In this document: piece by piece, positions 8,778-54,020 of the stretch
How the letters are laid out: the number at the start of each line of letters is the position of its first letter
How positions within the stretch are numbered: position 1 is the first letter of the stretch
NCBI RefSeq assembly: GCF_002865645.1
Contig: NW_020194563.1
Span: 392,152-456,151 of the forward strand
Reading direction: 5' to 3'
Length of the DNA: 64,000 nucleotides
DNA from: Hyaloscypha bicolor E
Taxonomy: Eukaryota > Ascomycota > Leotiomycetes > Helotiales > Hyaloscyphaceae
Program-made: the position numbers and the translations under genes
Notes under the pieces: model-generated
The model's input: only the letters and a program-made list of their open reading frames with translations
What the model was told of the DNA's origin: nothing
Databases searched by the model: none

Positions 8778-8941
8778 AGCTATATTCCTCACTGGCATAG
8801 GCCATTTGGGAATGGCCATATATTCCCCACTGGCATAGCTTATTTGAAGAATGGCCATATTCCCCACTGGCATAGCTTATTTGGAGAATGGCCATATTCC
8901 TTACTGGTATAGGCTATTTGGGAATGGCTATATTCCCCACT
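8778..8941. repeat. 37-bp minisatellite, left part
   Basis: Four tandem copies of a 37-38 bp unit, each containing ACTGGCATAGCTTATTTG and then GAATGGCCATATTCC. ACTGG starts fall near 8791, 8829, 8866 and 8903. The array stops abruptly at the 5' LTR and resumes at 16923, so the retrotransposon split it. The left copies keep most of their C/G, while the right copies are RIP-like (ACTAGTATAGC). Confidence 0.85.
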
Positions 8942-29792: not shown

Positions 29793-32100
29793 CTCCGATC
29801 GCGTCGATCATATTGAAGAATGTTTGTTCCTTACCCTCACCTATTGATGCTTCAGCTGCGGGTCTCCATTGTAATGAATGAAACTTACGCTCTGTATTTC
29901 CTGTCGGACCTTGATCAGTCGCCATTCTCGCTGTGCGATGAGACAGATGTTTCTGGCTGAAAGAAGGACAGAATTGGCAATCTGTCGAGAAAGGAGTCTT
30001 GTGAATACTCGACAGCCTCGCCTTCACAATGTTGCATTCGCTTTGTGGCGCCCTTGAGTCAAACTTTGTGGATCGCACCCGCTCTCGGTGGATTTTATGG
30101 TTGCGACATTGACAGGTTGAAAACGCAAGGTTTTCGTGGGAAGGAAGGTAAGCTGCTTAAGTATAGTTGGAAAGATTCCTGTTCTCGCTTACCATTGCGG
30201 AACAAAGGTGAGGAAAACCATGGGATTTTTAGGATGTCATTATTCACTCTTAACTTCACTGAGATTTTGCCTTTGCTACATTTTTATGCAGCCAGGAGCT
30301 GGTCCGAACGAGCCACCTACAATACATAATACCGCAACTTCCCATTTGCCCGATAACTCCTCCACCCACTTGCTCTCAACTTATATCAACAAAAGCCCGG
30401 CTGTAGATCCGCAAATTGCATGGCAGAGCGGACCAGATGATTAGAGGTTGTCTTATAATGAATTGATAATACCTGTCTAATTGAAGGGTGATTGTAACTC
30501 AATTGCTCATTTTAAGCAACTACTCTCACCCACGAAGTGAGTTCCGAGACAGTGATCTAGAAATATAGACAGGAAGATGGTGGGTGCATTAGATTGCAAT
30601 ACGTGCGAGCAGATGCATTAGATTCTGAGATCAAACTGCAATCGCTCTTCGGAAGCCCGCCTGCGAAGCAGGCACTTGTAGATCCAGCTGCAATGATAGA
30701 GTTTAGCGACCCATATGGAAGGTTTTAAATCAACGTCATTCATTGCAGGGTATAGTGTTTCAGCAACGAGGAGGGGACATTTGACTGAAAGGGGCTAGGG
30801 AAGAACACAGAAAGTGGTATTATTGGGAGCAAGCCTGCTTAGATCTCAATACAATAGGGTAAAATCCTTTGAGTGTGTGTTTGAAGGAAGTATTTGGAAT
30901 TGCCTCGCTTCGAAATAGAGCAGTACAAGTGCACTTGATCCTATTAGAAAAGAAAATAATTAATACGACACATAGACGCCCTATAGCGGTTTGCAGAAAG
31001 ACTTGCGATTAAGGCAAGGTCGAGGTTTACGCTAAAGATCTAACGAAGCATGATCTGAAGAAGATGTATTAATTGAGTTAATATTTGTAGGGTATATTTA
31101 GCAAGCAAATAAGCGTGACTCTATATTATTATACCAGGAAAGGGCAAAATTTTGTTCTAATAGCCTCATATATAGGGATACTTTTAGTATATAAAATAGT
31201 ATAATACGGTACTATAATATTCTATAGAATATTATTCCCTTCTTCTTTCCCGGAAAGTATAAGAAATACTTAACCTCTATATACTTTCGCTATTACTACC
31301 GGTAGTTCTTACTATCTATTCTTAATTAGTATTCTTAAGAATAACTCCCAAGATCCTATAGCTAATATAATCTATTTCTGAAAATATTAAACTATACCTA
31401 ATATTATATTATTTATATTACTAGACTCTTAATATAATTTTCTTAAAATATCTCAATTAGTAATAAAAACTATATAAGTTAGTATTTAAATAAGGCTATC
31501 TGAATATATCTAATATTATAATTCCAAGTAAGAATTAATATACTTTCCTTTATAAATTTCTTTATCTAGCTAGTATTCTTATATTTAGTATTATACTAGT
31601 AGTCCGGATAGTATTAGAAATCCCTCTCTTAATATATATAGTCTTTACTATACTTCTTTTCTTTATATATATAACCTGTAAAGTTATTCTTAATCTTTCT
31701 TATTATATTATTAACTTTCTCTAAATTACTATTCTTTACTTTATATAATTTTGGCTTTCTCTCTATATCCCTATAAATCTATTTTAAAATCTTATCTAAC
31801 TAGTTTAGAGACTCTTTATTTATTATTATATCTCGGTTCTTTGAGAAGAAAACCTAATTAGGTAATATTTTTTATAATAAATGCCTTTCTTAACTACCCT
31901 ATACTACTATATATATAGTAATCTATTAAAGTAACTAGTAAGTATATTATTCTATTTGGTATAATTAGGGTATATCCTGGCCATAGGAATATTACCCGAA
32001 TCTAATCCGGATTTGGTTGCCAGTTATTACCGTATCTGCCAAATTCCTTTAGTATACGGAACTTCTCCTCGCCCGACAAATAATCTAGAACGACCACCGC
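29793..32100. other. Gene-poor region grading into an AT-rich RIP block
   Basis: 29793-31050 has no convincing frame. From about 31080 to 31980 the sequence is strongly AT-rich with TAA/TAG in all frames. The JmjC relic on the minus strand reads into the right end of this block, so part of it is probably the RIP-mutated 3' end of that gene or of a repeat containing it. Confidence 0.5.
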
Positions 32101-33137
32101 CTAATGCTTTAGAGAGAGCGGCCTGGGTTCTCCGTTATTGAACTCCCTAGCTCCTTTAAGAGTAACCCATATTATAACTGCCGAATTATCCACATGCCAT
32201 CCGGTAAAGCTTCCTGCCTGTCCTAGCAGAGCCCACGTCAAGCAATCCTCCAGACCGCACTTTCTTTTCTCTGATATAGCCTTCTTTACCATCTTACTCC
32301 GAATCTCTGCAGTTTTTCCTTCCCTGAGAGCCAGGCATATGGCAGAAAGCAAGTCGAATCTTTTGGCGAAACCAGGGGGAGTAATGCCTTCCGCGGGGTC
32401 GGATATGCTAAGTAGATTTAGCGGTTTTATTACGAGACCACCGCGGGCAGCCTCGAAACTCGTAGCGAGTTCTCTAGCCATTGTTATCCGAGGAGAGACT
32501 ATTGACTGGACCAGGTCCATATACTGAATATTGATCGTATTATTTCCGCCCCCCTTATAAGCATTTAGTATATCTTGCGTAGTCTGAACTGGTCGACTTT
32601 CCTTCCATTCTTCGTCGACTAGAAGAATCAAACCCGGCAACTTTATCTTCTCTAGAAGTTCGACTAGCCCCTTTTGATCCACAAGTGTAAATGTTTTGTT
32701 TGGCCCATGGCATGTGGCTGGAGTTCCCTTGTAGAGGTGCTCTAATCTTTTCAGACCTTTATTTGGTCGATTTGCCCCGGAACTCGACCTGACTAGCTTC
32801 AGGAGGTTGTATCTCGAAGGATCGCCGAAAAGGATCGCCTGTTCGGCGTCGAATGCCTTCCCCCCCCCCCTGCCTTTCCCTTCTCCTCTTCGCCCCGCTG
32901 CCGTTTCAACCTTTTTTTGTCTCGAATCTTCTGCTGTCGATCGGCATCTTGTTCTCTCTTTCTCGCATCCCGCGCCTCTTCCTCTAATCTCTTCCTAAAG
33001 CCGCGCGGTCAGTTTCATACTTCCATTATCTGCGAGACGAGAGCTTACGCATCAGCCTTTTTCCTGGCCCTGTAGTTTGCCTTGCGATCTGTCTCGAACT
33101 TCTTCTTCTCCGATGTCGGCATCTCTTTTCGGGCCAT
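32101..33137 (-). pseudogene. JmjC-domain protein, broken by a G11 tract and RIP-type stops
   Basis: Exon 1 is 33137-33049 (MARKEMPTSEKKKFETDRK, very basic). A 54-bp intron (GTAAGC...TTTAG) ends at 32995. Exon 2 from 32994 continues a Lys/Arg/Glu-rich coiled segment to a run of eleven G on the minus strand (plus 32860-32870). Beyond it the sensible frame (ILFGDPSRYNLLKLV and onward) is out of phase; a run of nine or twelve would restore it. That frame then runs to TAG at 32103-32101 and includes SFTGWHVDNSA, the Fe(II)-binding HxD of JmjC dioxygenases. After the TAG the same frame stays protein-like (VVVLDYLSGEEKF) to a second TAG near 32015, then decays into AT-rich sequence. Both TAGs could be RIP-mutated CAG. 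The family demethylates histone lysines or has related roles; this copy is probably dead. Confidence 0.72.
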
Positions 33138-34014
33138 TTCTTATCAGTGTCAGTGCCTGTGAGTTCCGTGGTGCCTCGTTGTCTAGTATGGATGGATGCT
33201 TCCGTCGTTGTGCTCGTTGAGGGATTTTGTGGGATTTGTTCCTTCTAAATTTCGCGTTTCTGCTGAGATCGTTCTGGCGAGCTCACCACACAACCACGAC
33301 ACCACTCACATCAAATCCGATCCAACCTTGCCGGAGGCCTTCACCGTCAAGCCCTGGCCGCGCCGCCATCCTCCCGCGCACCACAATACAATGGGAAGCA
33401 GCGGGGAGACGCGCATTTCCTCTCATCAATCTCCATCTTCATATTCAATACCTCGAGTCACGGCCAATGATCATCTGCGATAACCTGAAGCCACTGCTAT
33501 AACATGAAGGACTTTTCCTCTCCTTTAAGTTTTAGCATCTGTTCTCTACGATGCCGTCCATATTAGCAGTCGCACAGCCGAATCATAAAAATGAACTCTA
33601 CAATCAAACAGATCAAGTCCTTCCACTGTGTGTGCTTCCCATGGCCGGGGCAATGAACTTGGATAGGTTGTTTGTAATTCAAATAGATACCGCGACCGCG
33701 AAAATCTAAAATCTGAATTTAGCATACCTTTTACTTAATCATACATTACTATCGTTGACCATAATAAATTCAAGGGGTAATCGTTCTCAACACTGCGCCT
33801 ACTCACCGCCGCCCTGTGACTGTCAATGGTATCAGTCCACGGAAGCCATAACGAAATCTATACGTTCACAATAAAGTAGCCCAAATCAATCACCCTTGAA
33901 TTCGGTCAGCAAGAAAAGTCCCTATTTTGTTCTTGTACAGTAGAATTAGTCTACTATTTCCATGAGCTAAAACTTGCCTGTTACGATTACATGCTTTCTG
34001 ATTTCATCGCAATC
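33138..34014. other. Intergenic region
   Basis: No supported gene; the frames at 33196-33502 overlap and lack protein features. It separates the JmjC relic promoter from the start of the box array. Confidence 0.4.
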
Positions 34015-37000
34015 TGAGCATGGCGCATGGTGTACGCTTATAGAGTTCTCGTTTGATGAGTGGATAACGCAATGAGACAGGTTATGCAGTGCGCCAGTCT
34101 CGAAGGCTCTCAGAATATCGAATCGTAATCTGCTTCACCCTCCTCTTAACACTTCAAAAGTTCAATGCCACTCAAGCGTTTCATTGCCCCTACACGTCAT
34201 ATCCAGTCTGTGTTATCCACCTAAGATAGAATTTTGCCGTGGCACTAAGTTATTACTCGTCGACTTTTGATTTGTAACTAAAGTTATCCCGCTAATCCCA
34301 ACCTGCACGTCTACACTCATAGAACACCGAATCAAGACTTGCGCACTTCCTCTATAGTGCCAATTCATTCTAATTACAAGAATGAACATCTCGGTGTCGT
34401 AGCTTGGCGCGCAAATTCCTTAAACCCGAGTAATCGCTGTTTCGCGAAACCCACCCAACGTATATTATAGCCTTTTTCTTGTACTATCATAGATTTAGCT
34501 CTAAATATTTATCTCAATCGACAATAGCTTATACAAAGGACACGTTCTCTAGAAAATAAAAACAGTTTCTATTAATTACCGTGGAGAAATTTTAATAACT
34601 ACTTTATAACGGCGTACTATTTTTATTCTAAACCAAGAGCATGAGATTCGCGCAGCATCTCATATATGCAATACCGTTTTCTGTAATATATAGGGTGTTT
34701 TTAATTAACTAGATCTATGCGCTAATCTGAATTCTTTCCAATTTTAAGTAATATCAAAAACTACGAGTACTATATCAACTCTATCTATAATCTATAGTTT
34801 ACAATTATATATTCTCCCAAATATGTCACCGCAGCTCAAAAGACGTCAATTATCATATTCTGAGAAGTAAGTAATACGAACTATGCATTCTTCGCGTCTA
34901 ATTCCAGGCTATATTACTTAATGCAAACCACTATAGTTTTCCGTTATTTGATCATATTTAGAGACCGGCGCATTGAGCTGTTACGTGACACTGGCTCCCG
35001 AAGCCCAAGAAGCACTTTGGATATAGGTAGAGCGTGCGCTTGTCTAAACTTAAGTGTTTTGTCTCTTAGCTATGGCTCGCGCAATACAAACACTCCCGAC
35101 GTGATTCCCATCCATTTAAAGACCAGCGCATTGAGAAATTCAAACTAAAAGCTTTTGAGTATATGTACTACAGTTTCTACAAAATAAGAACGTGCGCCAG
35201 TCCCGCGTGGGCCGTGAAATTTTCATCAGCCCATACATTACCAGCCTCGTCCTATATATTCCCATCGATCCAGACATCCGCGCATCATAAAATTCAAACG
35301 TTCGATTACCCAAACTCCCAGATACACATTCCAGATACTCGGAACATGCGCCGGTCTCTTACTCGCGTTTACCATTCCGCAGCACTTAACCCAATTAATG
35401 ATCACCTGAAATTTCTCTTGACCCAGAGACCCGCGCATTATAAAATTCAGACAACTAATCATTCAAACTCGCAGGTATGTATTCCGGCTATTAGGGACAT
35501 GCGCTAGTCTCTTGCTCGCGTTAACTATTTCGCAGCATATGACTCAAGAAACTACCACCCAGAATTTCCATTAATCCAGAGACCGGCGCATTACGCAATT
35601 TTATCATTCCACCTTCCAAACTCCTGGCTATCTTCGACATATACTAGGAACTTGCGCTAATTCTTGGTCGTTGAATAATATTCATCAGACGGATCTTCAT
35701 TTGTCCCTACCCCAAATTTATATTAATCTACGGCTCCTCGCATCGTGAAACCCCATTATTTTACCCTCTAAGACCCTGGTTGTATATTATGCAAGCTGAA
35801 AACGTGCGCTCGTCTCTTATTCGTTGTAGAGTATTTCGCACCGTAGAGCGCTGCTTACACTTGCCTGAAATTCCTACTGATCTAGAGACAGGCGCATCGT
35901 AAGAAGCTGTCGGCTGATCACCCAACCCCTTATTCATGTATTTAAAATGCTGGTAACGTGCGCCGGTTTCTCGTTGCACTGATAGTACTCGGTCATCTGG
36001 CGGCGCTGCAGATTTGATGACATATATTTCCACCCCTTCCACGCATCCGCGCATTGAAATATGGCAAGACCGTAATTGCCGTGATCCCGGCAATCAGCCA
36101 TCAGTGCGAGAGGGCGCGCAAGTGCAGCATTGTTAGCTTTTTGCCTCTCATTGCAAGCAATAGCACCCACGAACATTTCTTTGTATTTCTATCGAACGCA
36201 AGCCTCGCGCATCGAGATATCCCATTAAATAAACTATTACTATCTATGGTATCGGTCATTTTACTGGGAGCATGCGCTAGTTTAATATTGCTGACTTTTT
36301 GCGTCTTGGTCTACGCTGTGATATATACGATTTCTTTTACATTTCTATCCAATGCGAGCCTCGCGCATTGAGTTCTCTCGTTAAATGAACTATTACTATC
36401 CATTATATCGGCCGTTTTAATAAGAGCATGCGCTGGTTTAATATTAATAGCTTTTTGTGTCTTGTTTCATACTATTGCATTTACGAACATTTCTTTATAT
36501 TTCTGTTAAATGCGGGCCCCGTGCGTCAAAATATCTAATCAAATGCTTCTTTATTATCTATAATATTGGCCAGTTCATTGGAGGCATGCGCTAGCCTAAT
36601 GTTATTAGCCTTTTTATTTCCTAATGTAATAACAAGCATATATTAATACTTTTTTATATTTTTATTTACTACGAGCCCCGCGCATTGTAATATCCCGCTA
36701 TATTTACTATTGCTATCTAATATGCAGACCTTTCTCCATGAGAGCATGCGCCGGTCTCTCGTAACCCACTAGTCTACATATATGGGTTTATAGCAACCAA
36801 TCTTCACTCAGGCATTCCAATCAAATACAAGACCTGCCCACCGAGATACTTGTTGAAAAAGATATGCAAGCCCAAATTACAGTTTCCATATACTAAGAGC
36901 GTGGGCCAGTCCGCTTTACCTTACTGCTCTACCTTAATCTGCCCTTACCCACCCACCACCATCGTTCAAATTCCCAGCGACCACGACATCCGCGCATTTG

Positions 37001-38950
37001 AAAATTTCACTGGATAAACCTTTGCTATATGAATTATATATACGCACAGCGAGAAGGTGCGCCTGGCAGTTGTTGTCAATTTCCGTATATAGCTATTATA
37101 GTACCCGTTATACTTCATTTGCCGATTATATAATAGGTTAGCATTTGCGCATTGAGATATTTTATTATAAGAATGCTTGAGTCATAAGCTATACTCACGC
37201 ATAGGGAGAAAGTGCGCTGGTTAGTTATTCGATCGATTTCCTTATATGTCAGTTATAGTACCCGTTATACTTCACTTGCCAATTATATAATAGGTTAGCA
37301 TTTGCGCATTAAGATATATTATTATAAGAATGCTTGAGTTATAAGCTATATTCAGGTATAGGGAGAAAGTGCGCTGGTTAGTTATTCGATCGATTTTTGT
37401 ATATAGCTGTTTTAGTACCAATTATACTTCACTTGCCGATTTCACAATGCATTGGGATTTTCGCATTGAAATATTTTAATGCAAGAATGCTTAAGCTATA
37501 AGATATACTTATATATAAAGAGAAGGTGCGCCAGTGAGTTATCATTGATTTTTGTATATAGCTATTTTAGTACCCGCCACACTTCACTTGCCGATTCTAT
37601 AATGTATTGGCATTTGCGCATTAAAATATTTTAAAGCAAGAATACTTAAGCTATAAGCTATACTCATATATAAAGAGAAGGTGCGCTAGTGAGTTATTAC
37701 CGATTTTTGTATATAGCTATTTTAGTACCCGCCATACTTCACTTGCCGATTTTATAATGCATTGGCATTTGCGCATTAAAATATTTTAATGCAAGAATGC
37801 TTAAGCTATAAGCTATACATATGTATAAATAGAAGGTGCGCTAGTGAGTTATTATTGATTTTTATACATAGCTATTTTAGTACTTATTATATTGTATTTA
37901 CCGATTTTATAATGCATTGGGATTTGCGTATTAAGATGTTTTAATATAAGAATACTTAGGTCATAAGCTATACTCACGTATAGGGAGAAGGTGCGCTGGC
38001 TTGCCGTTATTGGCTTCCTCATATATATATATATATGTATATATTATAATATACGCTATACCTTACCTGCCGATTTAATAGCGCGGCGAGATCCGCACCT
38101 TGCGAACTTTTATTCCATAAACCCTTGCTTAATAAGCCATCCCTATACGTAGCGAGAAGGTGCGCTGGCTTGCCGCTATCGACTTATTTATATATATATT
38201 ATAACACACACCACACTTCACTTGCCGATTTAGCAGCGCTGCGACATTAGCGCATTGCAAATTTCCCTCCCACAAACCCTTGCTTGATAAGCTATACTGA
38301 CGCATATGGAGAAGGTGCGTCGGCTTACCGTTATCAAATTTTTTAAGTACACGCTACCATGCGTACTATGCAACACTTGCTAATTTAATAACTCCCCGAC
38401 ATTTGCGCATTGGCATATTCCACTATTGAAACTCTTACATTATGAGCTATATTCAGTTATAAGGATGGCGTGCGCTAGTCCCTCGCTTACAACTTTCCCA
38501 ACTAGCCGTGTAAGGTACGCCATACCACACATTGCTATTCAACTGGATTTTCACACCCGCGCATGTCTATCTTTTATTACGTGATCCAGTACCCCTTAAA
38601 AAACATTTGCTACATAACGGGAAGGTGCGCTAGTCAGTGGTTGATGATTTTCCCAACTATATTATTACTCACGCCACACTTCACTTGTTCGTCTCGCGGG
38701 ACTTTGAAGTCCGCGCATTGTAAAACCTCTTTAGAACAAGTCTTTAATGTCTAAAGAGTCATTAGAATATAGTGGGAGGGTGCGCTAGCCCATCGTTGAT
38801 AACTTCCCCCAATCTATATTCTATTGCATATTATCCCCACTAGTGTATTTCAGCGGGGTTTGAGACCCGCCATCGAACCGTCCTCACAGATTCCTTATTA
38901 ATACCCACCGTATAATCTTTTTAAAGTGGGGGAGGGGGGGTGCGCCAGAA
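34015..38950 (+). repeat. GCGCAT-box array, block A (about 32 periods of 153-160 bp)
   Basis: A short GC-cored box alternates in direct (GACCNGCGCATTNA, later TTTGCGCATT) and inverted (GTGCGCYAGTCTC) orientation. Inverted-box TGCGC starts fall at 35035, 35193, 35347, 35500, 35653, 35805, 35959, about 36115, 36273, 36429, 36587, 36747, about 36902, 37058, 37213, 37370, 37527, 37682, 37837, 37992, 38161, 38316, 38471, 38626, 38781 and 38941: steps of 152-160 with one of 169. Direct boxes lie about 67 bp before each inverted box. Sequence between boxes is AT-rich and mostly diverged left of 37 kb; at 37.0-38.3 kb whole units are similar (ACTTGCCGATT and ATTTTAGTACC recur). Recognisable start is at about 34020-34091. 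No coding content. Confidence 0.88.
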
Positions 38951-41679
38951 CGCTCTTAATCATCTTTCCTGTCCAAGCACTCTTGCAGATGCTGCCGCTT
39001 GCCCTTTGATTTTAGGAGTTTACGAGCCTCGCACGTAGAGAGACTAAAACATCTGATTCATAATAATTCAGAATACGCATCTCATTTGGCTAGAACACGC
39101 TCCAATCTAGACTCAGTCGCAGAGATGTGCTAGAAATTCCCACTCTAATATCAGCAGCTTGAAGACTCCCCGATATTTTGACCTTACTTCTTGAATCTCT
39201 AACAGATGACCATATGACAATAGCCGATCCGCAAAAAAGAATTGAGGAGTTCTTTGTTCTGTCCACTCAAAGGGAAACGCCACCCCATTCCAAGCGATGC
39301 AAACAATCCCCAGGCCTCATAATCGAGTGAAATAGATTGAAATCGCTCGTCCATCGACCTCCAGCATCAATTCCCCCCTCTTGAAATAAACTGCTGGGTG
39401 ATCGCTTGCGACAGGCCAAAATCAAGGCCACAGACGTCTTGGGTCACATACTGGTGTGTTTTCACTGTGATACCCTCGAAAACGACGTCTGTACGAAATC
39501 CAAACCTTGAGAAGTAAGGTCTCCAATTGAAGAGTACACTCTCCTTTCACGGCAGCTGGGCAACGGCTTTCTCCTCAGTTTAAAATGAGGCTAACTCTAC
39601 TCATAGACACCTGACGGAATTTCATACTTGAATAGATTAAAGACTAGGAGATTAGCGATTAAACTGTCTTAACTCTCGGAAATACAACAGGCATCCTCAA
39701 AGTCTTCAATTATCTAACCTCGAAGCAATTTAAAAAGGAGCGCGGGCATTAACACCCTCGCATCGACTTCACCTCATTCCCGAACGAAATCCATTGGAAG
39801 TAATTACAGCCCCCCACCAACTTCAATTTTGTTCTAACCCTTGGGTCATTCAACCCCTCACACTGATTCAATCCTCAATAGACAGAATCCCATCTTTCAA
39901 GGCCAGCCCTCCACCTCGATACTTCACAGGCCCATTTGCTGCATTTATGAAATCCACGAATCTGCCATTTCAATCACAATAAGATGCACCCAACTCCTCA
40001 ATAAGATAGTTTGGCTCTATTTCTGTTATGATTTAGTAGTCAAGTATAAGTTATAAGCAGCCAATAATAAGGGAAAATCTCATATAGTCGACGGAGACGT
40101 AAGTGGCACGTTTACTGTAATGCTAATTAGCATCTTGTGGCCTTAGAGAGTCCTTGTTCATAATAGATCCTGCCAGTCCGTCGTTTGCCGCGGCGTTCTC
40201 TCATGTTTTAATCTCAGAGCCTGCATCACCGTCACTACCTGCCAAGTTCTCCGCGAGTGGATTGTAGTCTCTAGCAAAGTCACGGACGTTAGCTGTACCA
40301 AGCGGACAGCTGCATGCAATGATCCAGGTAGCGCAGACATACTTGCATTGATTCATAGCTGGCTAGTGAGCGTCGGAACCGCATAATGCCCTGAGCATTC
40401 ATAACCATACAGTAAGGATTTATGGCTGTCTAGGCTATACGTGGGTTTGGTTCCTTGCCCTCAATGAATTCTCCTCTCGTGTAGACCAGAAGTCTAGCTG
40501 TGACAGCGAGGGTGTATTTAGGCACAAAATATTAGATAAATCGGGAATAGTTAACGAACGTTTTGCCATCGTCGGGCTTCGATTTCTTGTATTTTTAAAA
40601 TCGAGGAATGGCCTAAATGAGTGCATACTAAAGTTATAGATGCAGTGTAGTTGCTTGGCCTATCAAATATCAAGTCCTTACTAGATGTTCTAGCCGAATT
40701 GTTTGTTTAAAATTTGAAAGATCTGTGGAAGTTTCATTATTAATTAAAAGGAATCGAAGAGGCTTATAGAGGTCTAATAAAGTCTTTGGGTACAACTATC
40801 GAGCGCAAGCAGGTATTATTAAGGAAAGAGTTATGAGAACGTTTCCCTATTATTTTGATCTTAGCCTACTAAACAACGAACGCTCGAAGAGTGTAGTTCT
40901 CAATGTGGTATATTGGAGAGAACCGCGTCATGAGGGCATGTACCACAGACCTTGACATTATAGCGGCTAAAACCTCAATACCCGGGGCTCCATTTGGGAT
41001 GGCCAAGCCTAAAGTGGTGGAAGGCCTTGAACAAAACGTGGCAGCCAGCGTACCGCTCTTGGCTGTGTAGGGTTGATAATTTGGGAGTAGTTCCGGGAAG
41101 ATGGAAATTTCGAGAATCTGTTGAGACGGAGACAGGGACATACTAAAGTCCACTATACGTATTTTATGAATGTTTTAATTTACATTTTCAATCGCCTAAT
41201 AATGGATATAACGTCGGCGTATGCGCACTTACCCCCCCTCTGGGTTATTACCAAAATCGAATATTGAAATTTAGATCGGAAAATTGTAAGATAATAACTT
41301 CACATTCTGTTCCTTAGGACAATTTTAATACGATTTCTATATAGCTTTATAGAGATGCTGCGAATATATATTTAAGGTTGCGGGAACGGACGCGCCTACA
41401 CACTATATAGCGGGATAAAGCTAATCGACTTTATAATCGTGGCGAGATATTCTTTATATTAAAGAGAAATACGAGTTCAGATAAACACTTGACAGGATAT
41501 CGAAGAAGTTCATTCTCTCTTCTTTCTATGAAGTATTAAGCACAGATACATTTATTAGCGATTTATCTGTATATGCATTACGTTTTCAGTCCTGATTAGC
41601 CCACAGTGAAGCGCGCTTGGCGAAGTTTCTCACACTCGAGGCTGTGTCTAAAACCGAAGCACTCGATCTGCATGTCTCA
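38951..41679. other. Spacer between box-array blocks
   Basis: No clear box phase survives; isolated weak matches (about 39124, 41219, 41611) may be decayed copies. Open frames (39794-40056, 40869-41153) are short and without recognisable features. GC content is somewhat higher at 39000-39600. No gene can be supported. Confidence 0.4.
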
Positions 41680-44600
41680 GAATCGCGCATTTGATGAGAT
41701 TGCAATTTATATAATACAGGAAATCCAAATAAAATCTGTAATTGCTCCAAGAATTAGCAAAGACAAGGAAGCCAGTATATAAAGCATAAATAGCAGGACT
41801 GGCCTAAGAACTTGCATTTGAGAATAAAGAATAATATCTGCAACGGTTCGAGCATAGGGATATAAATATCAATAGTATCCGAGTACCAAGAACCTTCACT
41901 CTAAGTTTGCTCCACAACAGCGGACTTGCGCATCCACTCCTCTCAAAGGAAGATTCTTTTAACCCCAAAACCCCATTTTTGAGTGTGTGGCCGATGCGCG
42001 CGTCTCGCATCCGAAATTTGAAGGCTAGAATAACCAACCCAACACTTGATGACTACAAAAGAACCAGGCTCTTGCGCATTAATCTCCCTTACAGAATCTT
42101 CTGCGAGGATTCAGTAAAGGACCTGGTAATACTAATTCGATGTCCGAGTCTCATTTCAGAGCTGTATTATATTCCTTTTATCAACTACTAGCGAGACCTC
42201 CACTCACTAATTATACGCGAACCAGAGACTTGCGCATCTATTCCTTTTACAGAATAAACAATTAGTATAAAGGGCAACACTTAATAACACTTATTCGATG
42301 CGGTTGTCTCATTTAAGATCTATACCCACCTTTCAATTAACTGCTAGCGGACCCTTCACTTATTAATTATACGAGAACTAGAGACTTGCGCACCTATTCC
42401 TTTTAAAGAATGAACAATTAGTATAAGGGGCGTCACTTAATAACATTTATTTAATGCGCGAGTCTTATTTTATAACTATATTATATATCTTTTACTAATT
42501 ACTAGCAAGACCTTTACTTATTAATTATACGAGAACTAGAGACTTGCGCACCTATTCCTCTTATAAAATGAATAATTAATATAAGGGGCGTCACTTAATA
42601 ATATTTATTCGATGCGCGAGTCAAAAATAAGGAAACTGTTATTCTCAGCTACTAGCGATATACACGTTATATTCGTTGAGTATTACGCAACAAATATAGA
42701 CTTGCGCATCGATTCCTCTTGCAGAATGCATAAGTAACTTCTATTCTACTGCTTTATGGCCCCAATTTCGTGCTCAAGTCTGGTTCGAAGCCAGATTCTT
42801 TCTCTGATTGCTACTAGCACAAACCTTACTTTATCCCCCGTATATACAACAACTAGATACTGGCGCATCGATTCCTCTGGCAGAATGCATAAGTGACTTG
42901 TATTTTACTATTATATGGCCCCCATTTCGTGCGCAAGTCTCATTCAAAGGCAGATTCGTTCTCTGATTACTACTAGTACAAACCTTATTTCATTCCCCGA
43001 ATATGAAATACCCAGAGACTAGCGCATTGATTTCTCTTGCAAAATGCATAAATGACTTGTAGTCTATTGCTACATAGTCCTCGTTTCGTGCGCAAGTCTC
43101 ATTTAAAGGCGGATTCGTTCTCCGATTGCTACCCGTATAAGGCTTACTTTATTTCCGGAGTATATAATAACCGGAGCCCAGCGCATCGATTCCTATTAAA
43201 TGACGAATGACTGACCCTTTTTATACCTAATTCCAATACCTGTTTAGTGCGCTAGTTTATTATAGGAATAGAGGATATTGCAGCGGACTGTGTATTATAT
43301 TCTATTTCATCCACGCCCATATCAGAAGAAGAGAGTAGCGCATCGATTCCTCTTACCGAATGCTTTGCCAGCTTATTAAGAGTCCCCGTTAGGCATCTAA
43401 ACAATGCGCGAGTCTCGGGTAGTAATACCAAAATCCCGTTTTACATTCCTATGGACTTTTACTCCACTTCTCAAATCCCCGACAACCAGAGCCTAGCGCA
43501 TTAATTCATCTTACAGAACATATTATTCATTTGTTATAAGTGTCTTCATAACACACATTTAATGCGCGGGCCTCATATAATATCAGGGAAGTGCCTTGTT
43601 CCTCAGTAAAAGACTTCACTTCATTTACCAATTGCTCACGAAGTCCAGACTAGCGCATTGATTCCTTATATTGACTATATTCCATTATTAGTTAAAGTCA
43701 TTTGGAGGCGTTCTTTCAATGCGCGGGTCTCCAACAAAATCGGGAGGCGTGCCACTACTCACGACCCCCACGAGGAGCAGCCCCCACAATATTACCCAAC
43801 CCTTGTAATTGCTCTCCTATCTCATTAATCTAAATGTATATCCCAGTCTATTTCAATGTCCCATGCCACATCTCAGACCATCAAACCCTCCTTTTCTTAC
43901 TCGAGAGCCATCTTTGACTATAACACCTATGCTGCCCAAACCCTGCAATTATGCATGAACCCTTGACTTGCGCATCGATTACTTTTAGGATCAACTCCTC
44001 TTAGACACTGTGAGCAGTTATATCGTATTCATTAAATGCGCCAATATCGGAAACACCCATTATAATTCCACTCTCTCATGGTATAAAATCGTTTACTTAC
44101 ACCTATAATTCATCGAAGAACATTAGATATACTCAATCCCTAATATCGTAAACCTTTTTTGATCAGCATTCCTATCTCCATAACATTTTTAAGGTCCAAA
44201 AGTGGGTAGTTTGCCGCTGAATAAAGAATGAGTTTTGCTCTTATATAGCACCACACAATTCATTATTATTCAGTGCTAGTAGATCTGCGCATAAATCCCT
44301 CTTATAAAACCTTTCTTTGGACTATTATTAAGAGATTTGTTACTATAGTTCAATGCGGTATTCTCAAATGAATATTTCAAAGGTCCCATTCGTCCCACGT
44401 GGCAAACCCTACCCTTCCCGTATTTATACCACTCTCCGAGATTAGCGCATCAATCCCATCAATCCCTCTTGCAAAACCTTTCTTTAGAGTATTGTTAAGC
44501 GATCTGTTACCATAATCTAATGCGCAAGTCTCAAATGAATATTTCAAAGGTCCCATTCGTCCCACGTGGCAAACCCTACCCTTCCCGTATTTATACCACT

Positions 44601-46200
44601 CTCCGAGATTAGTGCATCAATCCCTCTTGCAAAACCTTTCTTTAGAGTATTGTTAAGCGATCTGTTACCATAATCTAATGCGCAAGTCTCAAATAAATAT
44701 TTCAAAAGTCCCGTTCGCACTCCCTAGCAAACTATACCCTTTCTGTATTTATACCACAGTCTGAGATTAGCGCATGAAACCCGCCTGTAAACACATTCTT
44801 TTTATTGCCGTCAATACCTTTATAATACTCATTTAGTGCGCAAGTCTCAAACGTAAGTTATAATAGTTTGCAAAGGTTACCACACTGCCTCTACCCTATT
44901 ATTACAGCATATCTGGACACTTGATTACTAATTATTCTTGCCAAAATCGCAAGTTATCCATAATTAGCACTTTGCTATAGTACTGCCTCGTGGCAATTCA
45001 GAAATTCCGCAGAAAATAATGCACTAGTCGGCAATACATACCTTCACTTAACAATCACCTCTGAAAACGAGACAAGCGCATCAATTCCTCTAACAAGATT
45101 CACAATCTGACTAATATTAATCATCTAATACTAGTGAGACGATGCGCTAATCTAATACTCGGCTTAAAAATTACATGTGGCATTTACAAGCTATACCCTC
45201 ATCCTTTTTAAGTTTAGTAGGAAGTATTACTCCCTTAGGATCAAATACTTATTTATTTTGGTTAAAACAAACCCGAAGACAAAGTATATATACCCAAAAT
45301 TGGTTCAGAGAAGGCAGAAACTAAGTTGTGCTGCAAGGAAGTGAAGTTATATTATAGTTAGTTATGGCCAGTTTTCTATGACATTTTAAGCCTGGCGCAT
45401 GGGGAATATGTACTGAAAGTCTTTGATTCTGATTTCAGAACAGCCCTCTGTGCCTCAACTAGTGCGCTTTCGTCGAACTCTCTCACATCTCAAGCCAACA
45501 AACGAAAATCATATATATCGTACCATCAAGTACTAACGCAATGGGCAAACAAGATCGGCGCATCTTATCCGTTCGAGAAATCATTCTTCTCATTGGTTTA
45601 ACTAATAGCACATGCTTGATTCGATGCGCTTGTCTCATTTGAGTGTTCCTCTAACCTACAAAGATCTGCGCATAAAAGGCGCAGTAAGATATTGTCGGAC
45701 GGGGAGACTCGCGCACCTTATATGCACTTGGAAATTGTTCATACGATTATTTAGGACAAATGCTGCGTGCGGGAATCATGCGCTTATGTCCTGATCGATC
45801 AATATTCTCCAATATCAAAATTCGGTTACTGCCTGCGCTTCCCTTCCCTACGTTTCAATCGTAGACAAGCGCACGTTCTCAGATGCTTAAAATCCATCAA
45901 AAATGGCCAAAGAGACCACATGGCCATGCAATCGATGCGCAAACTCAATTTGCAATAGCTATCACGAGTCCAAGTACCGGCAAACACGGAACGTATTCCT
46001 CTAGCTTATCTAGCCCAAACTGAGCAAGTCAGTGGGAATGCAGTAAACCAATTAGCTTATCTCGATCTTTACATTGCACTTCAAACGTTAATTTCGTTGG
46101 TAAACCTATAATTCATGGGGAATGTGGACTTGCCTACAAAGTCTCGCAGACAACTGTTCACATTTACAAAGCAATCGAGCACCGCGCATAGACATCTCCA
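41680..46200 (+). repeat. GCGCAT-box array, block B (about 28 periods of 156-159 bp)
   Basis: Best-preserved block. The direct box is about GAGACTTGCGCATYRATTCC and the inverted box about ATGCGCGAGTCTCATTT. Direct-box cores start at 41927, 42073, 42231, 42387, 42545, 42703, 42862, 43021, 43180, 43337, 43495, 43652, then 43969, 44286, 44454, 44611, 44769, 45075, 45394, 45558, 45710, 45868 and 46183. Gaps of about 317 mark a lost box with phase kept. Inverted boxes lie 66-70 bp downstream of direct ones (41995, 42141, 42769, 42929 and others). The arms GAGACTYGCGCATC and GATGCGCRAGTCTC are complementary over 14 bases. One unit (44363-44529) is freshly duplicated at 44530-44686. Weak traces extend to an inverted box near 46830. 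Confidence 0.9.
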
Positions 46201-47555
46201 AGAAATACGTTATGCATCATCGCTCCATGCCCGTCATAGCACACTTCGTGTGCGCGGACCTCTCCTTCTTCAATAATTAGCAAAGTTCGTTTCATACGCA
46301 TAATCTTTCCAAAAGCGATGATTCCGCAAGGGCTTCATTTACACACCTTGAATTGAGGTTTGCATAACTCCAACAGGTATTCGTGAAAATTAGTAAGCCA
46401 GGAATACTCTCCACCAGTGCTCTCTCTAGCGAAATCATGTCCAATAGCTGGAGACTTAGCTATGACATTTTTCAAGTCCACACAGTTACCTCGACCTGCT
46501 CATACTGTTAATTCTCCGAAAGCATATACGCAGGAGTACATAGCGCTTCTAAAACTACGAATCAATTTCGAATTTACTTGTCAGCGTTGTGTAGCTAACG
46601 ATCCGCCCCCGCTTCTCGTCTTGCATTCCCTTGTTCCTCCCACCTTGCAAGGAAAGATTTCCAACAACTTGTCACACCTCCACAGTTTCTCTTTAATTAG
46701 GCGATAGCATGAGCCTCGGGCTTCAGACCTGTTAACTAATTGACCGTATACCCTTACCACCTTGGGTAGATAGCATAATGCGGTGCATCATCTCATCACA
46801 CAAGTGCAACTGGTCTTCTCGATTATCAGATGCGCGGGTGTTTTAATACATTCGCTCTATTGGTAGATTTTCTTCTCTTCTCTACATTGCCCATACTCTG
46901 CTAACGCCTTTCTCCCCATCAGACTATTGTGTGTCGAATCGCAATAGGGGCCGTAGCTAGTGAGGGACTAATTTTGTATCGTGAAAAAGGGTGGGTCACA
47001 CGGACCGCCGAAATCTGACCGGGACTCAGTGCTTGTTACTAGTAGCAAAACTCGCGCTGAGAGAAGAAAGTGGTATGTTCCTGGCTTGATCAATAACCGG
47101 CGGCGTTCCCGTCAGCCCACCCAGATCCCCTCTCCCTTATGTTGAACTAGCTAAATAATAAAGCTAGGGTCACGTGCTTGCAATGTAAACCAAGTAAAAC
47201 GTACTGAATTAACTGTTGTTCTACAGTGGTAAGTAGCCCGTATATATAGCCCTGAACCCCCTAAGTCACATGCACTAAACCCCTAAACCAGAGAGCCTTA
47301 TACTGAACCATTCAACCTCAGCTGAACCGATTTAGCCTCACAGGGCATAATCTACTCAGTAATAAGCCTATGGCTTAAGCCCCATTAGTGCACAGCCCCT
47401 TAAGGCTCTGTTCCATTTGTACACAGCCCCTAATTTCAACACCTTAGCAAGCCCGTGAACAACGCACCGAGTCTGAAACTGGATCAAGAATGATGCTGAA
47501 GCCGACCGTCTATACACTAAGTTAACACAGTAAGCCTCCGAAAAGTGGGGAGCTC
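46201..47555. other. Decayed array edge and left flank of the TIR transposon
   Basis: One inverted box remains near 46830. From 46900 to 47555 there is unique sequence with short local repeats (GCACAGCCCCTTA, TACACAGCCCCTAA). No gene is supported. Confidence 0.4.
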
Positions 47556-47559
47556 GGTC

Positions 47560-47642
47560 TGTTCCACCCGGTTCGCCAATGCGAGCGATTTCCCAATCGG
47601 GGCCCCGATTTCCCAATCGGGTAATATTTCGGTATCGGGAAC
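47560..47642 (+). repeat. Left TIR of the Ginger-like element
   Basis: About 80 bp matching the reverse complement of 50060-50142 with few differences (GTTCGCCAATG versus GTTCACCAATG). It contains the palindromic core ATCGGGGCCCCGAT. Confidence 0.88.
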
Positions 47643-47683
47643 AAAATGAGGATATATTAAAGACACTTCACCTATACTAAGCT

Positions 47684-49721
47684 TTACTGTCCATGCCTCC
47701 CACTACGTCTAGGTGCTCTCATAGCTACCTTAGCCCTTTTTGGTGCCCTCCCCTCCACTTGATCACCTGATTCTCCTCCTTCTCTAGCTCCATTCTCACG
47801 TGCTTGCTCCTCAGCTACTCTCTTCTTTGCTCTCTCAGATGCTCTTCCAGCCTTCTGAACTGACGCAATTGAACCACGATTATTCTCCTTTGCCACTGCT
47901 TTAGGGAGGGTGATTTTGTCTTTCTTGTGGGTTACACCAGTGGTAGGTAATTCAGGATAAGTCGATTGGGAGGTGATTTTGTTAAGGGCACTGTACGGCC
48001 AGAGAGTAGTAAGCTCGCCATACTTAGTAGCCAAACGGTAGCCCTATTTTTGATTAGCTTTTATTCAAAGTAAGGCTTATAAATCACATACCTTTGGAGT
48101 CTTTTCCAGAACTCTTACTGGAATTCTAGCCATTTCTGTACCGAATCTGTATTGCTTTGGGATCTGGAGGATTGCAATCTCTTGAATATCATATTTAAGA
48201 GCTTTGGAATTCGCCCTCTTTACCATATTCTCCTTCTATTTTCTCATATACTCTGCAACCCTCCTAGTTAGCTCAGATAAAATCATCTCCTTAGCTACTT
48301 CCTCCTATTCTGCTTCCTCGTTAACGAATAAGCTATCCTCTCTACCCTCAGAACTACTATTCTCATTACTCTCAATCTCTCCCCCTATATCTCCCAGGGC
48401 CGTATATATACGGCGAGCGCTTTCCTTGTGGTCCAGGAAATTAGTAGGTGGCTTTCGTCCAAACCAGACCTCGTATAGTGTATTTCCCTTAGGAAGGGCT
48501 GGTATAGCTGTGATATTAACTACCCATGTAATTAAAGGAAGTAACTATATCTACGATTGGATACTAGTATCTGCTCTTACGGCCCGTAATCGTTTCTTGA
48601 AGATTCGATTAGCTACCTTAATAGAGCCCTGAGATTAAGGATAATAAGCTCGTCCGCAAATAATCTTTATTCCTCTCTTCTTATAAATCTTAATTACTTT
48701 CCCCTTAAACTTCCCCCTATTATTACAGGCTAAAATGGAAATATATCTATTATTATTTAGCTATTTAATAAGCTTGTCCGCAGCTTTATCCGCAGTCTTA
48801 GCCTTAAGCCTACAGATCCAGACGAACTTGGAAAAGTGGCATTTCAATTACCAGATCTATATATATTCTCCGTCCGGATCATACTATAATAGTATTAATA
48901 ATAGTATTAATAAAGTATAGATAAAAAGGTTCGGAATTTACGAAAATTGCAAAAATCGCAGGAATCGCGAAAATCGTAGGAAAAGCTTAAAAACATACGA
49001 AATACAGGAAATACAGGAATATAGAAGTAAATCACATAACTTAGGGGACACTTATATGAAAATCTATTAAATTCAGAACCATACGCTCGCCTGGATAATG
49101 AGATTAGATAGGCTATACTTCCTTGTTATTCTTTTAAACCTTCTCTTTATTATAGTAAGCGTATCGTATATTAATCTATATATAATCGTTACGGGACGGG
49201 CTATACCAAATTTTCCGTATATACTCAAATATAGTATTAGAGCCTATTTTTTAATTAGTATAAAAATTAGTAGCTTTTAGAGGGTACTAACCAGGGTATA
49301 TTAATTTCTTATAGACAGTAGTAAGAATCTCAAAAGCGTCGTTATAGCAAACGGTATATCGGGCGGGAACAAGCTCTCTATATTAATTATTATAGTATTC
49401 CTTGCGATATATCTGGCCGTCCTGAAGCTTATAGAGAGCGGAATCGTACTTGATATTAGCCTGGTAGCGTTTCTCTGCCTTGTTTTCACCAGGAAGCGGA
49501 GCCTTCGGATTTTGCAACTACTATCTAATATCTATACGTTTCCTAGCGGTAAGAATTTTCTTACTACCCCCTTTAGCAAGCCTCTCATCCCATGCAGCTT
49601 CGTCTTTAGCAGACCAATTATCAGTAGGCTCTTTAGTAATAGGGGAGGGTAAAAACTGGGTGCCAGAAGAACGAGCCCCTGCAGTAGTAATATCAAAATA
49701 TTGCTCTGCTCGCCCATACAT
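47684..49721 (-). pseudogene. Integrase-type transposase relic (HHCC, DDE core, basic tail)
   Basis: Starts MYGRAEQYFDITTAG at 49721. Then come an HHCC-like zinc region with its His codons changed to Tyr (TVYKKLIYPG, about 49300) and an integrase core at about 48440-48860 (HFSKFVWICRLK, then GKFKGKVIKIYKKRGIK, then SQGSIKVANRIFKKRLRA). It ends in a basic tail (RAPKRAKVAMRAPRRSGRHG) at 47684. The expected second Asp reads Asn and the final Glu reads Lys, both possible by G-to-A, and several TAG/TAA/TGA interrupt the frame. Inactive. The family resemblance is to Ty3-type integrases and their domesticated relatives. Confidence 0.78.
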
Positions 49722-50059
49722 ACGCTGACGAGGCGTACATGGGGATAGAGATGAACGAAGGGTTTAAAGAGACATATTAGAAGTGAGGTGATTAATTAAG
49801 AGGTATATAGAATCAGTATTTGTGCTTGGAAAGTTGGTGCTTGTACTATGAACTGTGTCTAGGGAATAACGAGTAAGGGAGCAGAGGCCCTATACATATT
49901 TGGGAGCTCTAGAGAAGTGTCTTTACCCCTATTATTACCTCCTTTAATATCTTAAATTAATAAATTAAACTATAACCTATAGAATCAAAATATGAGGTGT
50001 AGTAAAGTGAAGAATACAGGGCTGAACGAGCTAGTAAATAGGGGGAATTCAGCTCCTTT

Positions 50060-50142
50060 AGCCCCGATACCGAAATATCGAGCGATTGGGAATCCGGGGC
50101 CCCGATTGGAAAATCGCTCGCATTGGTGAACCGGGTGGAACA
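50060..50142 (-). repeat. Right TIR of the Ginger-like element
   Basis: Reverse complement of the left TIR. Its outer end GGTGGAACA is followed directly by the GGTC target duplication. Confidence 0.88.
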
Positions 50143-50146
50143 GGTC

Positions 50147-50714
50147 AAATATTGCTTAGTATACTTTATTCACACAAGTTCTGTTGCCACGTTGCCCCTT
50201 AAAGATCATGCCTCATCACACCTGGTCCTGGGTAATTCCTGAAGTCACTCCCTAACACCCAATGCCTTTTTGTCTACTGTTAAGTCAAATATCCGAACAA
50301 AAATACTAAATCGCCAGGAAGAGCATCGTCTAATGTGGCAATTTTTGAAAGGATGAGTCATGAATGAACTCTGACTCTGAAATACAAGAAATCATATAAT
50401 ATCCGAGTCCGCCAACCGCCTCTAGTCGTAGAAGTACTTCCGGAATCAGCACTGAGTGGCTGAATATATTAAATTTGTGCGTTATTGTGGTCCCCTCACC
50501 TCTCTTTCCGTAATGAGCCCCCACCAAACCATAAAGCCAACTCATAGCCACATCTATTAACTAGAAGAGAGTGCATTTGCACTCTCTCCGCTAGTACGTT
50601 CATATGCAGTGTTTCGGCTACTGTTCCTGGAAACCAGGTTTCTGAAGCACTGAAGCGTTCAATTTGCAAAACTTGCCGTTCTCACTACCATTTTCCGGAT
50701 CCACATCGACCCCC
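50147..50714. other. Right flank of the transposon
   Basis: Unique sequence with no supported gene; frames at 50330-50551 and 50743-51018 are not convincing. The box array reappears at about 50718. Confidence 0.4.
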
Positions 50715-51670
50715 GGGTTGGCGCATACAGAAAATCATAGAAATGCTGTCTCTAGGTCCTTCTACATGTAATACAACCTTCATTCCAATGCGCAATTCTC
50801 AAAGTCGCCGGATATCATATTTTATCCAAGTACTACCCGTTGGGAAACATTCCGTATTGAGCTCAAACGCCCCTTTTGATCTTGAACAATCCCGGATCGT
50901 TTTCCATCATGATATGAGAGCGCTAAGAATCCTTCTTCCTTCCAATTCCATGATTGCAACTGAAGGAGGTTTGCAATGCCCATCCTATCTCAGAGACCAT
51001 CAGTTCAACGTTATTTAATAGAGATTTCCGCATCAAGCCAAACGTCTCAAAAATAGCCAGGCATCATTCTCGACGAGACTGTCAGTGTCCGCCGGCGCAC
51101 ATGCCTGAAAATCATGGTGTAGGGGGTGCCTGTGAGATTGCCGGAAAATACCTATTTGCTCACCTCACAGTCACTTATTTAGCCCCGCGCATCAATCCGT
51201 CTTATTAAATCGAAGAATTCGACTATTCTTGAGCTTTAATTCTCGCTTCATGATGCGCCGATCCACGGTCACCATTTTCACTCGGTGGCAATCAGAGTGA
51301 GACCTTCCGCCTATGACTTTGTCTCACTCAAGCAGAGGTCATTGACCATGGTGTATCTGACACATGTAAGCAAGTGCAAGTTACCGAATCAGAATGAGCA
51401 ACTATCAGCTGAGGCGAATACGACTTCCGGCAGCTTGATATCAGCAAGTGAAGTTGGTCCATGCTGGAGACCATGGGCGTGACATCATCGGTCTGAGACT
51501 GGCGCACGATCTCAATCCATTTAAAGCCGTCTCTGTGTGCAGTTGAATGGATATAGAAGCCTACCTTCTTGCGCTTTTTGCAAATACCTTGAGAACTAGT
51601 ATGGTTTCTGGATATGTGTACCGGTTTCGCCCCTCAGAAACTTCAACCGGAGGGTGCCGCACATACTTAT
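50715..51670 (+). repeat. GCGCAT-box array, block C (degenerate)
   Basis: Direct/inverted pairs at about 50720/50788, 51030/51095, 51188/51252 and 51503/51569 keep the 66-69 bp pair distance and 158-bp multiples of block B (51030 to 51188 is 158, 51188 to 51503 is about 2 x 158). Boxes are GGCGCATAC, CCGCATCAAG, CGCGCATCAATCC and GAGACTGGCGCACG. Loop sequence is unlike block B. Confidence 0.7.
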
Positions 51671-52490
51671 TTCACTCAGAAGTAGACCACACCAAACGGC
51701 AACTATCAAGCTATGCGTGAAATTCTGTCATTCTCGCAATGAAATTTGACAGTGCATATGACAATAGCTGAGTAGCAGATGGGCAAAAAAGAGGGCTGTC
51801 ACGCGGGCAATTTCCTGACGCAAAAGGTATCTCAGACCTGACAGTATTTGTGGAAAGTACTAAAGTCTCTGGTATCACCAAAAAAGAACGCTTAAAGCGA
51901 CCTCGAGAGGTGTGGAGGAAGTAGTGTTGCTTCTGCTACATTTCGTTGCTTGTATGTATCACCGCTTTGCTTTACGTTCGCTATGCAGAAAAAGAGTTGT
52001 TCATGGTTTAAATATAAGTGTGGCATTAACTAATAATCCAGCTTATGGTTCCCCACTCCCTGACTGCGTAAAATGCAGACAAATCCAAGCTCGAAGCACC
52101 CTTGAAGGAAGCAAATGACACATAAGAATTTTGCAAGCCAATGAAGAAGGATGTGGCTGCAGCCCAGAGATACAGAGAAATCGGAAAACTGGAGAACACG
52201 AGTAGCCAGGCATTTCTGGAAGTCTACAATATTTACATTCAGTATTAAGAAACGATTGTCAAGGTAACCGCTTTTTTGTATTGAGATGAGAAGCTCACTC
52301 TTCTCCATCCCAATTCTCAAACGAGCCAAGAAAGTTGTAATGACACGTCAGTATAGCCATGCAAGGTCGGGCCTTTCGACCCCTCCAAAGCCATCCTGCG
52401 GTCCACCTTTAGTTGATTTCATGGATGCCTCTCATTCCGGATTAATCTTCATCTCCCGTTCTTTATTAAAAGATATATAACTTGTAAATA
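51671..52490. other. Spacer between blocks C and D
   Basis: No box phase and no convincing gene. Overlapping frames at 51912-52118 (+) and 52030-52329 (-) lack domain or codon evidence. Confidence 0.4.
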
Positions 52491-54020
52491 AGAGTTGCAC
52501 ATTAAACTATTATTATTAATGGATAATTCTCATACTAGTGCATTATTGTATAAGAGGAATTAATGCGGAAATCTCTAGTTCTTAAATAATTTAAAAGTAG
52601 ATTTATATTAGTACTAATAATAAATTTAAATATTTATAAGTTATAAATAAGACTTTCGCATTAAAATATTATTAGTAATCGATAATTCCAATACTGGTGC
52701 CTTATTTTATAAGAGGAATTAATGCGGAAATCTCTGGTGCTTATATAATTCAAAAATATATTTATATTAGTACTAATTATTAATTTATATATTTATAACT
52801 TATAATTAAAACTTCTGCCTTAAACTAGTGTTTTTAATTAATAATTCTAATACTAGTATATTATTTTATAAGATGAATTAATGCGGAAATCTCTAGTTTT
52901 TATATAATTTAAATATTAACTTAAATTAATACAAGTAATTAAACTTAATAATTATAAGTTATAATTAACTCTTGCGCATTAAACTAGTGTTTTTAACTAA
53001 TAATTCTTATATTAATACGCGGTATTATAAGAGGAATTAATGCGGAAATCTCTAGGTTTTATATAATTTAAATATTAACTTAAATTAATACTAGTAATTA
53101 AATTTAATAATTACAAGTTATAATTAACTCTTATATATTAAACTAGTATTACTAATCGATAATTCCTATACTAATATGCAATATTATATGAGGAATTAGT
53201 GCGGAAATCTCTGGTTCTTAAATAATTTAAAAGTAGATTTATATTAGTACTAATAATATATTTAAATATTTATAAGTTATAAACACGACTTTCGCATTAA
53301 AATATTATTAGTAATTAATAATTCTAATACCAGTGCCTTATTTTATAAGAGGAATTAATGCGGAAATCTCTAGTTCTTATATAATTCAAATATGTATTTA
53401 TATATTTATAAGTTATAAATAAGACTTTCGCATTAAAATATTATTAGTAATCAATAATTCCAATACTAGTGCCTTATTTTGTAAGAGGAATTAATGCGGA
53501 AATCTCTAGTTCTTATATAATTCAAATATATATTTATATTAGTATAAATTATTAATTTAAATATTTATAAGTTATAAATAAGACTTCCGCATTAAACTAG
53601 TATTATTTATTAATAATCCTTATATTAATGCTTTCTTTTATAAGAGGAATTAATACAGAAGTTCATAGTTCTTATATAATTTAAAAGTAGATTTATCTTA
53701 GTACTAATTATTAATTTAAACATTTATAACTTATAAATAAGACTTGTGCATTAAACTAGTATTATTAATCGATAATTCTTATATTAATACTTTATTTCAT
53801 AAGAGGAATTAGTACGAAAATCTCTGGTTCTTATATAATTCAAATATAAACTTATATTTATTACAATATATAATTTTAATATTTATAAGTTATAAATAAG
53901 ACTTGCGCATTGAATTGGTGCTATTAATTGATAATTCTTATAATAATACGTTATATTATAAGAGGAATTAATGCGGAAGTCTCTAGTTCTCGTATAATTA
54001 AAAAGTAAGTTTATATTTAG
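52491..54020 (-). repeat. GCGCAT-box array, block D (inverted, AT-shifted, 159-bp period)
   Basis: Ten tandem units in which GAGGAATTAATGCGGAAATC recurs. The ATGCGG-type core starts at 52562, 52721, 52880, 53039, 53198, 53357, 53493, 53652, 53811 and 53970: exactly 159 except one step of 136. The partner box is AAGACTTTCGCATTAAA. Read on the minus strand the unit (ACTAGAGATTTCCGCATTAATTCC) is a C-to-T-shifted form of block B (ACTAGAGACTTGCGCACCTATTCC), so this block lies opposite to A, B and C. Whole units are alike here, unlike most of block A. Confidence 0.9.

Follow-up and report, generated by a model that had tools for sequence, protein, structure and literature searches.

A single-locus array of about sixty convergent box pairs, candidate sites for a DNA-binding protein, in Hyaloscypha bicolor E

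One locus of Hyaloscypha bicolor E carries about 60 convergent pairs of a short asymmetric box, and we give roughly even chances to the reading that it is a single-locus array of paired candidate sites for one sequence-specific DNA-binding protein. Judging from the design of the sequence, such an array probably serves as a chromosomal platform. The pairs occupy ~12 kb in all and lie within the window, that is, the whole 64,000-nucleotide stretch analysed here (positions 392152-456151 of a 971,482-base contig). The locus comprises the following features, in window coordinates:

34003..38801 (+): blocks 1 and 2, 26 convergent pairs with an inner spacing of 66-68 bp, including a younger tandem run
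37051..37999 (+): amplified run, period 155, 6.1 copies, 84% matches, boxes less variable than the remainder
39000..41900: box-poor segment separating blocks 2 and 3
41908..46295 (+): block 3, strongest boxes, period ~158, 22 pairs plus one 76-bp pair
42381..42393 (+): one upstream box as an example, its GCGCA core lying at 42388
42454..42466 (-): convergent partner of that box, 67 bp downstream of it, TGCGC core at 42455
44445..44525 (+): the sole pair whose inner distance shows a clear indel, a tandem duplication of 9 bp giving 76 bp
47560..50160: dispersed element separating block 3 from block 4, bounded by terminal inverted repeats about 80 bp long
50721..51702 (+): block 4, a weakly preserved remnant in which three pairs are recognised on combined score
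52465..54020 (-): block 5, AT-rich (19% GC), period 159, 9 pairs, RIP-like composition

One box in two orientations at a fixed inner spacing

A profile built from the locus yielded the consensus box rGAC(T/C)N-GCGCA(T/C), a motif of ~11 bp with an information content of roughly 14 bits, in which position -1 is free in both orientations. The two boxes of a pair follow this one consensus in opposite orientation. Since the position weight matrix was trained on the locus itself, shuffled sequence is the relevant control for box counts. At a score above 8, the matrix recognised 124 boxes in 34.0-54.02 kb against 15 in the other 44 kb of the window, and Markov shuffles of the 20-kb locus contained 6.5 on average and 12 at most (50 runs). 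At a score above 12, the locus kept 110 boxes and the rest of the window 2, with a shuffle mean of 1.1 and a maximum of 3 (50 runs). Furthermore, 103 of 122 neighbouring box pairs switched strand at a score above 9, and the other 19 kept it. The shared box in alternating orientation described in the initial annotation is thus borne out, both by its concentration at the locus and by the strand switching.

The spacing of neighbouring boxes (score above 9) depended on the direction of the switch. Plus-to-minus neighbours were almost all 66-68 bp apart (49 of 52), and 38 of 51 minus-to-plus neighbours were spaced by 86-93 bp; a further 8 of these 51 lay at 239-252 bp, which fits a single skipped slot with the register kept. 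The 60 convergent pairs (blocks 1-2, n=26; block 3, n=22; block 4, n=3; block 5, n=9) had inner distances of 66 bp (n=13), 67 bp (n=41) or 68 bp (n=6), and none at 66-68 bp arose in 20 shuffles of the sequence. Counting the 76-bp pair with its tandem duplication brings the total to 61. Spacing was particularly uniform in block 3, with 67 bp in 20 of its 22 pairs and 68 bp in the other 2; in block 4, the partner of the box at 51502 scored below threshold. Below 52 kb, the inner distance averaged 66.9 bp with a standard deviation of 0.6 (n=51), and the outer linker 89.5 bp with a standard deviation of 2.8 in the 36 of 50 gaps that measured 75-100 bp. The rigid quantity is the inner 66-68 bp of the convergent pair, and the remainder of the period is looser.

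Autocorrelation peaked at a lag of 155 in 34-39 kb, 158 in 41.7-46.2 kb and 159 in 52.5-54 kb, showed no clear peak in 50.7-51.7 kb, and gave only small, short lags outside the locus. The pair repeat is therefore ~155-159 bp, about 157 bp, and nucleosome-like by length. These values agree with the period of 153-160 bp proposed earlier; in place of the 75-80 repeats proposed with it we count 61 pairs and, from the gaps, about 13 further in-register slots without a recognised pair. Block 5 runs in the opposite orientation to block 3 (41.7-46 kb). When scored with a model derived from 35 units, the units of blocks 1-4 mostly favoured the plus strand, as built, and a few edge units the minus strand.

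Boxes vary less than the DNA between them in blocks 1-3

Conservation was compared at two distances. Among 210 pairs of 67-bp units lying 12 or more apart, with block 5 excluded, the plus box was 78.9% identical and the minus box 74.5% (ten positions each), against 31.2% between the boxes, where the null expectation is 27%. At a separation of at least 10 units, interior identity was 0.315 versus 0.272 in rotated controls, and purine/pyrimidine identity 0.570 versus 0.505. Interior identity being slightly above the controls, distant units are related, but near saturation. The inner length is almost unchanged despite this divergence, and the substitutions include many transversions.

Local duplicates gave a similar picture. 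Six runs in blocks 1-3 could be aligned locally; in these, counting the degraded slots, box columns differed in 0.151 of comparisons versus a mean of 0.363 when that column set was moved along the unit, and 0 of 134 shifts were as low. Set against the inner DNA only, a comparison immune to linker indels, the difference was 0.151 versus 0.314 and the box was lower in all six runs, although the advantage was small in the 42.4-kb run (0.100 versus 0.147). Because units were first recognised by their boxes, the sample is biased toward conserved boxes; leaving the degraded slots out gave 0.094 versus 0.305, so that restoring them shrank the difference but did not erase it. Moreover, CpG columns varied less inside boxes than elsewhere (0.129 versus 0.531), as did CpA/TpG columns (0.128 versus 0.565), and base composition therefore fails to explain box conservation. 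In the local duplicates of blocks 1-3, the boxes show about half the variation of the intervening DNA.

Block 5 behaved differently. Its boxes showed no constraint (0.238 versus 0.208 elsewhere), and 83 of 134 shifts were as low. The combination expected of a dyad array, namely, one motif in both orientations at a fixed spacing and with slower change in the boxes, is found in blocks 1-3 and not in block 5. The proposal that boxes and spacing are conserved over drifting intervening DNA consequently holds outside block 5 for distant units (75-79% versus 31%) and in blocks 1-3 for local duplicates (0.151 versus 0.314), and fails for the boxes of block 5.

Within the array, only block 5 has a RIP-like composition

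As expected for RIP, the ratio of CpA+TpG to ApC+GpT fell to 0.20 in the AT island at 9.2-17 kb. It was 1.11-1.47 in blocks 1-4, near the value of genic DNA (1.35), and 0.62 in block 5, the only array block that looks RIP-mutated. Inside the boxes of block 5 we counted 30 CpA/TpG in 320 bp, against 36 in 1250 bp outside them. The retention of CpA and CpG in the boxes had been taken as a sign of selection or of exemption from RIP. Selection on the boxes fits, but the argument from RIP is weaker than proposed: since blocks 1-4 lack the signature, any claim of resistance rests on block 5, where the boxes are unconstrained. We also considered a pure RIP or drift artefact and rejected it, as blocks 1-4 lack RIP composition and transversions are many. 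The AT-rich RIP-like island itself is flanked by similar 37-38 bp minisatellites, at 8780-8941 and 16925-17220.

These patterns bear on whether the locus is a relic, that is, a once-functional or selfish tandem repeat with formerly constrained boxes that is now decaying. The unconstrained, RIP-like block 5 would suit such a history, as would the slots without a recognised pair, the weak edge units and the dispersed element sitting inside the locus. The unconstrained block 5 and the about 13 slots without a recognised pair also count against the binding-site reading, since they indicate that some of the array can be, or once could be, done without. However, the non-box columns of duplicates differ by 27-42% in five runs and by 56% in the sixth, yet the boxes change less. 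Because diverged duplicates show fewer box changes, the constraint on boxes outlasted local duplications in blocks 1-3, and we regard a decaying satellite as an unlikely account of the locus.

The two boxes of a pair show no convincing covariation

Inverted boxes are able to pair, and a cluster of hairpin RNAs had been listed among the possible roles of the locus. If stems were maintained, the variable positions of the two boxes should match better within a unit than between units. Across 60 units, matching at positions -3, -2 and -1 was 0.40, 0.53 and 0.27 within units, against 0.51, 0.50 and 0.25 between blocks, no better within units than between them. Permutation of Watson-Crick pairing over the whole box gave p values of 0.19-0.30. 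When G-U pairs were allowed, same-unit pairing on the plus strand exceeded the permutations for the whole box (p 0.021 over all units, 0.062 within blocks) and for the core (p 0.016 over all units, 0.20 within blocks), a signal that weakened within blocks and was absent from the minus strand. When 10 of the 60 units were folded, z fell below -2 for 4 of 10 plus-strand sequences and 2 of 6 minus-strand sequences. The C-richness of the plus strand across much of the region also counts in favour of an RNA. Rfam returned 0 matches at the locus. Compensatory change between the two boxes of a pair is thus mostly absent, apart from the weak plus-strand G-U signal, which argues against a conserved hairpin. 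With no convincing covariation at the variable stem positions, the hairpin cluster is left unsupported, and we consider it, or a single structured non-coding RNA, scarcely probable.

The array is found at one locus of the assembly

Exact-pattern searches were performed over the 82-Mb assembly. The paired pattern GCGCAY-N60-62-RTGCGC had 36 matches, 28 at the locus and 8 single ones elsewhere, with 7 for the control. A looser pair pattern gave 87 matches versus 41 for its control, with no second cluster among the matches listed. The single box GAGACYNGCGCAY matched 42 times, 20 of them at the locus and the other 22 dispersed, against 9 for the control; none of the 10 dispersed copies examined had a partner at 67 bp. 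An extended box matched 10 times, 8 at the locus and 2 elsewhere, against 0 for the control. DNA queries from blocks 1, 2 and 3 matched the array locus only, and the box-poor segment at 39000..41900 matched only itself. Block 5 had short AT-rich matches on other contigs (67-89% identity over about 28-133 bp, best E 2.8e-9), which we take as AT-rich chance. Outside the assembly, the paired pattern had two matches on GC-rich viral contigs without arrays, about chance level by our own estimate, and a longer motif had 0 on viral contigs.

A second array was thus not found in the 82-Mb assembly by these exact-pattern searches, which strongly changed boxes may escape. Within that scope, the box cluster lies at the array locus, the 8 single paired matches elsewhere being comparable with the control. 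No description of such a paired-box array was found among the literature matches listed, and no tRNA matched at the locus. The initial interpretation is supported in part, with no second array found by these searches and no Rfam match. The multiple dispersed copies expected of a transposon or MITE family were lacking, the block 1-3 queries being single-locus, and this candidate was rejected. By comparison, the element at 47560..50160 had 93 matching pieces in the genome, its own included, with 40 of 89 candidates scored.

Coding capacity was low. No open reading frame of at least 150 aa from a start codon occurred in 34-54 kb, and the longest stop-to-stop frame there had 156 codons (50.5-51.0 kb). 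With no long open frames in this interval, a protein-coding repeat was rejected as well.

A proposed dyad-binding protein and comparison with known arrays

The asymmetric motif in both orientations, the independent variation of the two boxes and a spacing constant to about one base point to a dyad-binding protein. Such a protein would occupy each box, and two bound subunits, probably a dimer or two sides of one particle, would require the 67-bp geometry; the nucleosome-like repeat may then produce a regular nucleoprotein array. Because the array is long, has no long open frames and is apparently present once, its most likely role would be at the level of the chromosome, in anchoring, pairing, segregation or silencing of the region, rather than as a single-gene switch. 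The array may have grown by local tandem duplication, since neighbouring units are most alike, and may have decayed through the loss of boxes, through insertion and, in block 5, through RIP.

The Drosophila Responder satellite and the EBV oriP family of repeats are also single-locus arrays, of target sites or binding sites, and differ from the paired-box array in unit design and sequence. In kind, the array appears closest to CENP-B-box satellites and nematode pairing-centre repeats. The CENP-B-box alpha-satellite of primate centromeres is likewise a tandem repeat with a short protein-binding box, in the present array a putative one, and CENP-B dimers can bind two boxes simultaneously (PMC8997354). 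A nucleosome-length tandem repeat with a conserved short box is present here too (lags 155-159). In contrast to CENP-B arrays, the boxes are convergent pairs at 66-68 bp, their sequence differs, and beyond the boxes the unit shows little conservation. Furthermore, presence at several or all centromeres was not seen, only one ~12-kb locus being found by exact-pattern searches of the 82 Mb, which strongly changed boxes may escape. A box confined to a single locus could not define the centromere of every chromosome, and a review states that satellite centromeres have not been found in fungi (PMC8997354). The regional centromeres of Zymoseptoria tritici, 5.57-13.55 kb long and without a common motif, resemble the array in size and differ in that a motif dominates the array (PMC4589918).

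The pairing centres of Caenorhabditis elegans, recognised by the HIM-8/ZIM zinc-finger proteins through 12-bp repeats, also consist of many short sites in a defined chromosome region, and these repeats act on chromosome behaviour (PMC10291267). As far as the excerpt of that source goes, they are described without inverted pairing or a fixed period, unlike the array (PMC10291267). By analogy with such systems, the locus might be a fungal site of chromosome behaviour, a pairing, segregation or partition centre made of ~60 rigid 67-bp dyads with one reader protein, a tentative proposal that we consider rather unlikely in this specific form. If the boxes are bound, the locus would be a natural operator array uniting a protein, a motif, a spacing rule and a chromosomal effect in one place, and could show whether chromosome sites defined by their sequence, as CENP-B arrays and pairing centres are, exist in fungi.

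The convergent geometry could also suggest a cluster of replication origins, in which the boxes would be paired ORC sites, with an MCM double hexamer loaded in the interval. The ORC sites of budding yeast lack a GC core, unlike these boxes, and the sequence of the engineered yeast origin made of ORC elements differs from the array box. In addition, a single locus cannot be the origin rule of a genome, and the outer linker is also fairly constant. What recommends the idea is distance: in the excerpt of PMC12183775, two inverted ORC-site elements work best with a 70-bp spacer and footprints around 64 bp are mentioned, and the box cores of the array lie about 62 bp apart. The engineered origin shares with the array a convergent pair whose spacer is close to 60-70 bp (PMC12183775), and differs from it in that the array repeats the dyad about sixty times at one locus. 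We hold an origin cluster to be highly unlikely.

Surroundings of the array

Genes are present in the flanks of the array on the window, with Pfam matches to GATA, metallo-beta-lactamase, alcohol-dehydrogenase and zinc-knuckle families and a sub-threshold Zn2Cys6 match; by Pfam, none of the neighbouring predicted proteins is linked to the box. Such neighbours are relevant to a cis-regulatory or silencing array, in which the boxes would recruit a transcription or heterochromatin factor controlling the adjacent genes. With its roughly 14 bits and its free spacer position, the motif does resemble a transcription-factor site. However, usual enhancers are smaller than sixty pairs in ~12 kb, and there is no clear use of the exact motif elsewhere, its 22 copies outside the locus comparing with 9 for the control and the 67-bp partner missing from all 10 examined. 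Control of neighbouring genes is therefore quite an unlikely purpose for the locus.

The contig ends are AT-rich and showed no telomere repeats in the 600 and 400 bases examined of the terminal 3-kb pieces. Upstream of the array, a 662-aa open frame at 26147-28135 has 16 relatives, two of them at 93% and 73% identity and one in Glonium stellatum at 40%; neither this protein nor its 790-aa relative has a Pfam match. Downstream, an open frame at 59286-59620 weakly matches a zinc knuckle over a 119-bp unit that is duplicated. From 31500 to 48500, C mostly exceeds G on the plus strand (skew about -0.1 to -0.3), a bias that is reversed at 37-38 kb and about 40-41.5 kb.
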